From contig NZ_VCJO01000003.1 in assembly GCF_009712475.1 (NCBI RefSeq), forward strand, positions 372,916-436,915: a stretch of 64,000 nt of DNA, written 5' to 3'. Under the pieces are notes generated by a model. That model made no database searches. It was not told the origin of the DNA and worked only from the letters and a program-made list of their open reading frames with translations. Shown here piece after piece: positions 39,467 to 42,677 of this stretch. Made by a program: the position numbers and the translations under genes. Numbering within the stretch: the first letter of the stretch is position 1; the number at the start of each line of letters is the position of its first letter. The stretch comes from Micromonospora sp. CP22. GTDB lineage: Bacteria; Actinomycetota; Actinomycetes; Mycobacteriales; Micromonosporaceae.

Positions 39467-39560
39467 CGTTCGCTCCTGCTCATGCCCTCGACGCTACGCG
39501 ACGCCCGACCGGCGACCGGCACGACGCACGTGATCCTCCGCACCCATCCGAAGACCTTCC

Positions 39561-39650
39561 GTATATGGGAGATCACGGATTAACAACATCATCCTTAGCT
39601 CCGCATGAAAACTATGGCCGACCAAGCCTGATCGCTAATGTCTGCCGGGT
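39561..39650 (+). promoter_or_regulatory. Upstream element 1, shared with the second LPVTG gene
   Basis: This 90-base block aligns without gaps to 40851-40940, 56 of 90 identical by eye. The distal half is AT-rich for this genome and shares GTATAT, GATC and AACATCAT with CTTA. The proximal end shares TCGCTA and TCTGCC around a TANNNT -10 (TAATGT, 39636-39641). No canonical -35 is present, which suggests an activator or alternative sigma factor. The gene starts 64 bases beyond the block. Confidence 0.6.
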
Positions 39651-39713: not shown

Positions 39714-40685
39714 GTGAACCGTCTGAACTTCCGGCGCGTCGCGGCAGCCGCCGCTGGTGTGCTGATCGGCCTCGCCGGTGTTGCCGCCGTCGCCGCCCCG
39801 GCTAGCGCTCACCACCCCATCATCAAAGGTGTCGGCTGCAAACTGACGGACGGCACCGTCAAGGTCGAGTGGACCGTCACCAACAGCGAGCGGCACTGGG
39901 TCGCCACGGTGGCCGCCGTGCAGACGCCCTCCGGCGCCCCGGTCACCAACATCGTCGTCGGCGCCGAGGTGCCGAAGGCGGGCGAGGGCGCGCTGGTCGG
40001 CGAGCAGATCGTGCCGGGCGGCCAGCAGGCCCACCTGACCGTCAAGGCGGTCTGGAAGAAGAACCGGAACACGGTCACCAACACCCAGACCGGTAAGGCC
40101 CGGATCGTCGGCAAGTGCGCGGAGCCCGAGCCGACGCCGGAGCCCAGCGAGAGCCCGGAGCCGAGCGAGAGCCCCGAGCCCACCGAGAGCCCCGAGCCGA
40201 GCGAAAGCCCGGAGCCCACCGAGAGCCCCGAGCCGAGCGAGAGCCCGGAGCCGACCCCGACGCCGACCGGCGAGCCGGTGGTGCCGGAGCCCGGTGAGCC
40301 GACCTTCGAGCTCACCGAGACCTGCGACGAGCTGACCTTCCTGATCAACAACCCGGCCGACGGCGTCCCGTTCTCGATCACCCTGACCTCGGAGAAGGGC
40401 GCGACCAAGACGCTGGAAGCGGTGCCGGGCGAGACCACCTCGGTCACCTTCGACGCGTACCCCGGTCTGGTCGTCACGCCCAGCTACGAGGACGAGGACG
40501 GCACCGTCGAGGGCGAGTCGGTGGCCTGGGAGCAGCCTGAGGGCTGCGGCAACGGCGGAGGCGGCGGCCTGCCGGTCACCGGTGCCGCCACCGGCGGCAT
40601 CATCGCCGGCGCCGCTGTGCTGCTGGCCGCTGGCGCGGCGCTGTTCGTGGTGACCCGCCGACGTCGGGTGCGCTTCACCGCCTGA
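39714..40685 (+). CDS. LPVTG cell-wall-anchored surface protein, short paralog
   Basis: A 323-residue secreted protein. The signal peptide ends at PASA32, leaving a mature N-terminus beginning His-His. Residues 33-135 form a beta-rich domain with two Cys (C42, C135) homologous to the downstream paralog. A PEPSESPEPTE repeat stalk (137-185) follows, then a second two-Cys domain (195-278), a Gly stretch, the sorting signal LPVTG at 286-290, a membrane helix and an RRRRVRFTA tail. A sortase would attach it to peptidoglycan; none is encoded here. CAGGAG 5 bases before the GTG fixes the start. Function unknown. Confidence 0.88.
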   Translation: MNRLNFRRVAAAAAGVLIGLAGVAAVAAPASAHHPIIKGVGCKLTDGTVKVEWTVTNSERHWVATVAAVQTPSGAPVTNIVVGAEVPKAGEGALVGEQIVPGGQQAHLTVKAVWKKNRNTVTNTQTGKARIVGKCAEPEPTPEPSESPEPSESPEPTESPEPSESPEPTESPEPSESPEPTPTPTGEPVVPEPGEPTFELTETCDELTFLINNPADGVPFSITLTSEKGATKTLEAVPGETTSVTFDAYPGLVVTPSYEDEDGTVEGESVAWEQPEGCGNGGGGGLPVTGAATGGIIAGAAVLLAAGAALFVVTRRRRVRFTA

Positions 40686-40705
40686 TCCTGCTGAACCGAC
40701 CTGAT

Positions 40706-40743
40706 CCGAGGGCGCGTCGACCTGCTGGTCGACGCGCCCTCGG
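40706..40743 (+). terminator. Strong terminator after the first LPVTG gene
   Basis: A perfect 17-bp stem (40706-40722 with 40727-40743) with a TGCT loop lies 21 bases after the stop codon. There is no U-tract. It isolates the two LPVTG genes into separate transcripts. The remainder of the 374-base gap holds the second upstream element and nothing else I can identify. Confidence 0.85.
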
Positions 40744-40850
40744 CGGCTTCGATCCGGATCGTCGCCAGTCCGCAGAGCCGGTCCAGTTTCCCGGACAGGT
40801 CACCTCTAAAGTGGACATCGATGCGTAAAGCCGCCAGGTGTTCACTCACC

Positions 40851-40940
40851 GTATATCAATGATCTCGCATTCATAACATCATGCTTAAGGCCTGCTGAGG
40901 GCTGTTTCGGTTCTCACGATCTCGCTAGGGTCTGCCCGGT
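40851..40940 (+). promoter_or_regulatory. Upstream element 2, shared with the first LPVTG gene
   Basis: The partner of the block at 39561-39650. Its -10 candidate is TAGGGT (40926-40931) in the conserved context TCGCTA-TCTGCC. The AT-rich distal half lies about 40-75 bases upstream of the -10, where an activator would bind. The gene starts 120 bases beyond the block, against 64 for its partner. Confidence 0.6.
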
Positions 40941-41059
40941 GCGGCGTCTTCGCCGCCGGCCATCGGCACGGGAGGCACCCCCCAGGCGCGGCAACGTGCC
41001 GCCAGCGCCGTCCGTCCCGCCCGCGCCGACCCAGACGCTCTTTCACCCCGGGAGTACGC

Positions 41060-42562
41060 GTGATCCGACCCAAGCTGTCGCTGCGGCGACCGCTGGCTGT
41101 CCTGGCAGCCGCCCTCATCGGCATGACCGGCGCAGCAGTGGCGGCAACCCCGGCCGCCGCCCACCACACCACCATCACCGCCACCGCCGTTTGTGACCAG
41201 CTCAGCGGCGAGCGGGTGATCACGTGGAAGGTGGTCAACAGCGAGCGGAATACCGCCGCCACCGTCAAGAAGGTGACCGCCGAGCCGTCGACCCCCGTCA
41301 CGGTGCTCGTCCCGGGTGCCGATTCCGTCGACCTTCAGGGTGTGGCGATCCCCCGAAACGGCTCCGTCCAGGCCGTGCAGCGGGTGCCGGGCGCGACCAC
41401 GAGCGCCAAGCTCGTCGTCGAGGCCCGCTGGGACAACAAGCGGGAGAAGACGAACGAGGGCAGCATCAACCTCGCCGCCGACGCCGCCTGCAACCCCGCG
41501 CCGAAGTGTGTCGACGCCAGCCAGGCGAAGTACAGCCACACCTTCGACGGCCCGAAGGGCACCGCGACGGTCAAGCTGGACGGTGACCTGCCGCTGTGCG
41601 GCGACGCGAAGCAGTACTTCACCCTGGTTTCGTACTTCGCTCCGCGCCCGCAGTTCGCCACCCCGCAGTACGTCTTCGGCGAGCCGGACAGCGACTTCCT
41701 CGGCGCCGGCCAGACCGAGATCGAGCTGAACGTCGGTGTGCCGGACTGCCACACCCAGGTCGACCTGATCTGGGGCGGCGTCGACGAGGTCATCGACCCG
41801 CTGGTCGAGGACGGCCCCCGCTACGGCTCCAAGAAGCTGGGCGAGAAGAGCGCTCCGGGCAACCGCTCGTCGGGTCCGCAGGGTTGGTACAACGGTGGCA
41901 GCAAGAACTGCACCACCCCCGCGTCCACCTTCGCCTCCGCCTGCGACGGCACCGTCACCGTCTCACTGAGCAACGACGGCTCGATCTCCAAGTACCCGGT
42001 CGAGTTCGAGGTGCGGGGCGAGAACGGCTGGTCCAAGAAGGTCACCGTGGAGCCGGGCAAGGCGGACAACGAGACTGTGGTGCCCGCCGAGCACGCCGGC
42101 AAGATCGAGGTCCTGGTCGAGGGCAAGGTCATCGAGAACGGCACGTACTCCTGGGAGCGTCCCGAGGAGTGCCCGCTGCCGACGGTGACCGCCGACGCGG
42201 ACTGCGAGACCTTCGGGCTGACCGCCTCGAACCCGGAGGGTGGCATGCCGGTGAAGGTGGAGTTCACCTACGGCGACAAGACCGAGACCCGTACCGTCGC
42301 CCCGGGCTCGGCCGAGAAGGTCAGCTTCCCGGCCGGTGACGAGGAGACGGCGCTGGTCGTCCTGCCGGAACTGGGCCTGGAGCTTGAGGTCGTCTACGCG
42401 CCCGAGGGCTGCGGCGGCGGTGGCGGCGGCGAGGAGCCCCCGGGCCTGCCGGTGACCGGTGCCGCGGCCGGTGGCATCGCCGCCGGTGCGATCGCCCTGC
42501 TGGCGCTGGGCGCGGTGCTGTTCGTGATGGCACGGCGGCGGCGGATCCACTTCACCGCCTGA
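41060..42562 (+). CDS. LPVTG cell-wall-anchored surface protein, long paralog
   Basis: A 500-residue secreted protein. The signal peptide ends at PAAA34 and the mature chain begins His-His-Thr. Residues 35-144 match the first domain of the upstream paralog (VCDQLSGERVITWKVVNSER). A unique middle domain (150-284) contains four Cys and GVPDCHTQVDLIWGG. Two tail domains (285-371 and 374-451), each with two Cys, resemble the single tail domain of the short paralog. LPVTG is at 463-467, followed by a membrane helix and RRRRIHFTA. GGGAG 5 bases before the GTG supports the start. Likely a disulfide-stabilised surface adhesin or structural protein; function unknown. Confidence 0.88.
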   Translation: MIRPKLSLRRPLAVLAAALIGMTGAAVAATPAAAHHTTITATAVCDQLSGERVITWKVVNSERNTAATVKKVTAEPSTPVTVLVPGADSVDLQGVAIPRNGSVQAVQRVPGATTSAKLVVEARWDNKREKTNEGSINLAADAACNPAPKCVDASQAKYSHTFDGPKGTATVKLDGDLPLCGDAKQYFTLVSYFAPRPQFATPQYVFGEPDSDFLGAGQTEIELNVGVPDCHTQVDLIWGGVDEVIDPLVEDGPRYGSKKLGEKSAPGNRSSGPQGWYNGGSKNCTTPASTFASACDGTVTVSLSNDGSISKYPVEFEVRGENGWSKKVTVEPGKADNETVVPAEHAGKIEVLVEGKVIENGTYSWERPEECPLPTVTADADCETFGLTASNPEGGMPVKVEFTYGDKTETRTVAPGSAEKVSFPAGDEETALVVLPELGLELEVVYAPEGCGGGGGGEEPPGLPVTGAAAGGIAAGAIALLALGAVLFVMARRRRIHFTA

Positions 42563-42578
42563 CCTGAGCTGAGCCGGT

Positions 42579-42616
42579 CCGCCCCGGTCGCCCCGTACCA
42601 CGGGTGACCGGGGCGG
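42579..42616. terminator. Convergent terminator between the LPVTG gene and recG
   Basis: An 11-bp perfect stem, CCGCCCCGGTC and complement, encloses a CCCGT/ACGGG inner stem. It lies between the stop of the long LPVTG gene and the 3' end of recG, so it can act on both strands. Confidence 0.7.
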
Positions 42617-42677
42617 TTCGTCTGTCGGCACCGGGCGACCGGAGCGGGCCGAACCGTGGACCAGCGGACGGAGGCAG

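Follow-up and report, generated by a model that had tools for sequence, protein, structure and literature searches.

A Micromonospora gene pair related to cwpA and cwpB encodes putative sortase-anchored wall proteins with a conserved histidine at the predicted mature N-terminus

Two neighbouring open reading frames in the stretch of Micromonospora DNA analysed here (64,000 nucleotides; the window) encode proteins, A and B, that end in the motif LPVTG and are predicted to begin with His-His once their signal peptides are removed, which raises the question of what the pair does and what the histidine is kept for. The features of the locus are as follows.

39545-39629, + strand: upstream element of A, shared with B, with AACATCATCCTTA at 39585-39597
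39714-40685, + strand: ORF A, CwpA-type sortase-anchored protein, 323 aa, GTG start (open frame, homology, locus)
39714-39809, + strand: signal peptide of A, predicted cleavage between ASA and HH (AxA rule and conservation boundary)
39810-40118, + strand: N domain of A, about residues 33-136, His-first beta-sandwich, Cys42/Cys135 (profile, prediction)
40122-40289, + strand: stalk of A, Pro/Glu/Ser/Thr repeat (sequence)
40299-40550, + strand: T (tail) domain of A, residues 196-279, Cys204/Cys278 (profile, E 2e-30)
40569-40583, + strand: LPVTG sorting motif of A (sequence)
40706-40743, + strand: hairpin after A, 17 bp, GC-rich, no T run; -41.6 kcal/mol for 40698-40752, z -7.0
40835-40919, + strand: upstream element of B, shared with A, with AACATCATGCTTA at 40875-40887
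41060-42562, + strand: ORF B, CwpB-type sortase-anchored protein with an extra N domain (N-M-T-T), 500 aa, GTG start (homology, profiles)
41060-41161, + strand: signal peptide of B, predicted cleavage between AAA and HH (AxA rule)
41162-41491, + strand: N domain of B, residues 35-144, His-first, Cys45/Cys144 (profile, prediction)
41507-41911, + strand: M domain of B, residues 150-284, Cys150/180/230/284 (M profile)
41918-42175, + strand: T1 domain of B, residues 287-372, Cys295/Cys371 (profile)
42179-42415, + strand: T2 domain of B, residues 374-452, Cys382/Cys451 (profile)
42446-42460, + strand: LPVTG sorting motif of B (sequence)
42579-42616, + strand: hairpin after B, 15 bp; -46 kcal/mol for 42570-42640, z -3.0

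An earlier reading of the letters alone (the sequence-only reading) had described a modular LPVTG surface pair with His-His mature starts, a common first domain and two-Cys tail domains present once or twice, and this description held. Both frames are open, and in both proteins LPVTG is followed by a hydrophobic segment and then RRRR. Mature A is predicted to start at residue 33 (HHPII, after ASA) and mature B at residue 35 (HHTTI, after AAA), the cleavage sites being placed by the AxA rule and the conservation boundary rather than by a signal-peptide predictor. Profiles built here resolve A into an N domain, a Pro/Glu/Ser stalk that B does not have, a single T domain and the anchor, while B carries two T domains; each N and each T domain has two Cys and the M domain four. 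The N domains of A and B are homologous (37% identity, E 7e-10; profile E about 1e-34 each), with bounds that agree with those read earlier. The four-Cys middle domain of B (M, residues 150-284) had been overlooked; it matches no Pfam family.

The closest characterised relatives are two proteins of Actinoplanes missouriensis described by Tan et al. (mBio 2026; PMC13251363), CwpA (AMIS_70730; 337 aa, with Cys at 44, 146, 213 and 292) and CwpB (AMIS_70740; 436 aa), LPVTG proteins encoded in tandem. We took genome G438 to be A. missouriensis because the two adjacent ORFs at its locus match the printed lengths of CwpA and CwpB exactly (337 and 436 aa) and the Cys residues of the first stand at the positions given for CwpA (44, 146, 213 and 292). 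A shares 38% identity with CwpA over A residues 7-323 (E 1e-62), and B residues 139-500 share 32% identity with CwpB (E 3e-45). By domain profiles, A and CwpA are both N-T, B is N-M-T-T and CwpB is M-T-T, the M profile matching CwpB at 43-154 (E 2e-14). In the window, as in A. missouriensis and every other genus checked, rsmD-coaD and recG-DAK flank the pair, and the order cwpA before cwpB is kept at the Micromonospora locus. On the strength of full-length similarity, shared domains and the common chromosomal site, we identify A and B as the equivalents of CwpA and CwpB in Micromonospora. The sequence-only reading would have been contradicted by a match to a characterised family of surface proteins, and such a match was in part found; the developmental role guessed there fits, since the Actinoplanes homologues act in development (PMC13251363).

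The likeness has limits on both sides. A resembles CwpA in its N-stalk-T-LPVTG order, its four matching Cys and its HH mature start, and its stalk sits where CwpA has a disordered region (PMC13251363); however, the P-E-S repeats of this stalk are of a different sequence, and CwpA is without the Glu of an Asn-Ser-Glu (N-S-E) motif in the N domain. B resembles CwpB as the M-T-T-LPVTG product of the second gene, but it has an extra His-first N domain in front and no long stalk, whereas the start of CwpB reads TNHG and its stalk is of the Ser/Pro kind. The long chaplins ChpA-C of Streptomyces are likewise sortase-anchored developmental surface proteins; unlike them, A and B gave no Pfam match to the chaplin domain, and the Cwp paper takes the same view of CwpA and CwpB (PMC13251363). 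Pfam and NCBIfam hold no family that covers the domains of A and B, matches being weak, composition-driven or, for sorting-signal models, below cut-off, apart from TIGR01167, which matches A at its cut-off.

Anchoring of the LPVTG proteins of A. missouriensis depends on the class E sortase SrtE, which alone serves them; deletion of either cwpA or cwpB releases exploratory growth, and sporangia are lost in the cwpB mutant but normal in the cwpA mutant (PMC13251363). A search for a sortase that could recognise LPVTG here, suggested by the sequence-only reading, returned one class E sortase in the Micromonospora genome (NF033747, 233 bits against a cut-off of 160). By analogy, we consider it probable that A and B are cwpA-cwpB orthologues, anchored to the wall via SrtE, that restrain spreading and favour spore formation in Micromonospora. 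In this scheme A and B would leave the cell through Sec, be cleaved after AxA and be attached at LPVTG to peptidoglycan by SrtE. On the hypha they would form a coat of beta-sandwich domains linked in chains and held by disulfides, with A raised on a disordered stalk, B extended into a longer rod, and the His-first N domain as the outward tip. The altered hyphal surface would then hold back spreading and promote the change to sporulation. What supports this in Micromonospora is homology, domain order, synteny and the presence of one class E sortase, whereas the need for SrtE and the effects on growth and sporangia were established by A. missouriensis genetics (PMC13251363); we infer the same Cwp role here, as well as the pairing of the Cys residues into disulfides. 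Because B carries an N domain that CwpB does not, it may serve an additional function. The Cwp authors propose a hydrophobic coat (PMC13251363), a step that deserves caution because mean hydropathy, a crude measure, is negative for the mature chains of A, B, CwpA and CwpB alike (-0.35 to -0.60).

Micromonospora makes single spores, not sporangia, which speaks against this scheme; in this the organism of A differs from the sporangium-forming Actinoplanes of CwpA. A gene pair so far unannotated in Micromonospora is now placed in the CwpA/CwpB system, and the role of Cwp wall proteins becomes directly testable in a second lineage, one without sporangia.

The two genes also share their upstream sequence. 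An AT-rich element of roughly 60-85 bases precedes each gene, its core AACATCATNCTTA at a distance of 129 nt from A and 185 nt from B; with some changes, the element recurs upstream of A and B orthologues. A scan of the 5.85-Mb genome found the exact core at these two places alone and a single additional site that differs from it by one mismatch, and a longer pattern of the element returned the same two sites plus one weak site. The hairpins after A and B are probable transcription stops, that of A being of the actinomycete kind. The shared element before each gene and the strong hairpin after each suggest that A and B are separately transcribed yet co-regulated. For A. missouriensis, by contrast, cwpA-cwpB is thought to be an operon, while here each gene has its own element and A is followed by a strong hairpin, a difference that speaks against the Cwp explanation.

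The system was described for Actinoplanes and some relatives (PMC13251363); we found the N domain in 247 of 301 Micromonosporaceae genomes, that is, in most of the family, and in scattered genomes of the rest of the class (10 of 297, two Micromonospora counted). His-His does not drive this detection, because a profile stripped of its first four positions still found the domain in 161 of 201 family genomes. In the set of genomes compared, M. lutea, M. andamanensis and Verrucosispora sioxanthis are among the closest named relatives of the source genome, and B is 70-94% identical across 17 Micromonospora genomes. All 17 Micromonospora loci have B, but an intact anchored A gene lies beside it in only six (L015, L017, L021, L022, L028 and L029); A is therefore not obligatory, and a strict obligate A-B complex was rejected on account of the 11 loci at which B has no intact A alongside. 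That the two forms assemble together, as had been suggested from the sequence, stands only as a possibility, since these loci argue against it while an AlphaFold-Multimer dimer of CwpA and CwpB through their N-terminal regions argues for it (PMC13251363). Other arrangements were N-T with N-M-T-T (L167), three genes (L168), two N-T genes (L169) and M-T-T alone (L171).

The first residue of the N domain varies little. Of the 116 non-identical copies that immediately follow a signal peptide, 113 begin with His and three with Cys, and 95 have His as the second residue; clustering at 60% identity leaves 61 representatives, of which 57 have His1, the other four Cys, and 46 His2. A retrieval bias toward HH was tested with the profile lacking positions 1-4 on 40 further loci, a choice that favours divergent members. 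The 36 N-terminal copies recovered have His at +1 in 29 cases and HH in 14, the second residue being otherwise mostly Ala, Asp or Tyr, so that position 2 varies (H, A, D, Y) and position 1 rarely does. None of seven internal tandem copies has His-His, although three retain one His at the equivalent position; a His-His start is likewise missing from copies that lie away from the mature N-terminus. None of seven sortase-anchored proteins that lack the domain, CwpB among them, has His at +1. Chance is excluded for the His start, since more than 100 homologues share AxA-His and these seven proteins do not. From the copy counts, the internal copies and the comparison with anchored proteins, the constraint falls on the free N-terminal His1, with His2 secondary. 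His1 is, on this sequence record, a hallmark of the N domain at the mature N-terminus and under strong constraint, and its near-invariance is a feature absent from the Cwp paper.

The beta-rich first domain expected from sequence was borne out by AlphaFold2, which returned a confident beta-sandwich (mean pLDDT 95.7, pTM 0.86), and the whole B chain was modelled with moderate confidence (mean pLDDT 79.0) as successive beta-sandwiches. Fold searches with the models gave generic Ig/FN3/MSP-like matches only. Foldseek found no match to the N domain under E 0.001, a profile search of solved structures found no clear sequence relative (best for the N domain E 0.06), and matches to the T2 region were designed Ig-like and fusion proteins. 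The top VIA-align match of the N domain was a Streptomyces Cu(I) chaperone (Z 7.5), with MSP and adaptin-ear domains as list neighbours. Z values under 8 are common among generic sandwiches, and nothing was drawn from this likeness. In the model of B, strands 3-12 and 17-26 form a hairpin, and from these strand limits His1 would lie opposite Glu28 and His2 opposite Ser27 of the N-S-E motif. His2 covaries with columns 27 (p 2e-6) and 28 (p 2e-4); taken as proof of contact, this was downgraded because columns 82 and 86, which mark subfamilies, score as high, and the covariation may mark subfamilies rather than contact.

What, then, is the histidine kept for? We propose that the conserved His1 most likely makes a functional contact, with either a metal ion or a partner surface. 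The sequence-only reading had raised a copper-binding histidine brace as in CopC or LPMOs, and the part of it that stands is a strongly constrained His1 on a beta-sandwich. Going by the inferred cleavage, the N-terminal His that such proteins expose is present; the CopC/LPMO type itself is unsupported because it needs a second His ligand, and columns 1 and 2 are the only conserved His columns among the 61 representatives. No Pfam CopC or LPMO family matched A or B up to the E-values used. A looser one-histidine site is possible, for which there are two solved precedents: YcnI, with a mono-histidine brace of His27 and Glu50 (PMC8424229), and Ang-1, an Ig-like domain that binds Cu through His1 and a poorly conserved Asn41 with a Kd of about 74 nM (PMC12537917). 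Like YcnI (DUF1775), the N domain has a free N-terminal His on a beta-sandwich and a carboxylate some 23-27 residues on, but no strictly conserved residue is shown near His1 that would correspond to the Glu or Trp of YcnI, and the N domain is held by a sortase wall anchor. Like Ang-1 of the HupE/UreJ-2 proteins, it combines an Ig-like fold, a near-invariant His1 and a poorly conserved candidate for the second ligand; Ang-1, however, is fused to a membrane permease, and it is Ang-1 for which metal binding has been shown. Sequence matches between the N domain and YcnI/DUF1775 or Ang-1 were not found.

Under this explanation the N domain would be a wall-displayed metal site of the one-histidine-brace kind, in which the free amine and imidazole of His1, with a facing-strand side chain (the Glu of N-S-E where present) or His2, bind Cu(II) or another metal, and A and B would buffer or sense metal at the hyphal surface. 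The proposal is tentative and on balance rather unlikely. The persistence of His1 even in the sample drawn without positions 1-4, the missing His-His start of internal and set-back copies, the plausible hairpin register on a confidently predicted sandwich, the covariation of His2 and the solved precedents are all consistent with it. No second ligand is conserved, however, Glu28 is not universal and is missing in a large subfamily that includes CwpA, the covariation marks subfamilies too, and no metal genes flank the locus. A dedicated metal role of the N domain seems to us unlikely, and we would give equally little credence to the broader notion that the His-first N domain, near-universal in Micromonosporaceae, represents a previously undescribed family of mono-histidine metal sites displayed by sortase at wall-protein tips; if true, whether a hypha spreads or sporulates would depend in part on metal at its surface. 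An alternative explanation, which we regard as a reasonable possibility short of an even chance, is that His1 is kept for docking of the N-terminal tip to a partner, for example A with B, or B with B across hyphae; the N domain would then be a metal-free adhesion module. The predicted CwpA-CwpB dimer, the generic Ig/FN3-like fold and the presence of the domain on both A and B fit such docking, but B often stands without an intact A, the cwpA mutant forms normal sporangia (PMC13251363), and the conserved columns besides position 1 are mostly of core type (Trp, Cys, Gly). It is very unlikely that the His start is a functionless by-product of signal-peptide processing in this lineage: AxA-His is a workable cleavage context and the signal peptides of the paralogues are also similar, yet CwpB, from the same locus, and the six other anchored proteins without the domain do not have it, and His1 is kept both in divergent N domains and in actinobacterial families other than this one (e.g. 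those of L065-L067).

Several variants were seen beside the common form. Tandem N domains of which the first alone has a His-His start occur in other genera of the family (L039, L040, L043, L052, L055, L093 and L150), as do proteins with Cys instead of His as first mature residue (CHPE, CETD, CHVE; L125, L126, L122, L057, L135 and L234). HH-start N domains of other actinobacterial families (L065 and L067) belong to proteins that end in SPSTGK or APSTGSR, with no membrane segment in the open frame seen. N domains with HY or HI starts often have a new His in the facing-strand motif (for example SEWHF, SKVHF; L156, L134, L137, L138, L210 and L212), possibly a swap of the second His to the facing strand.
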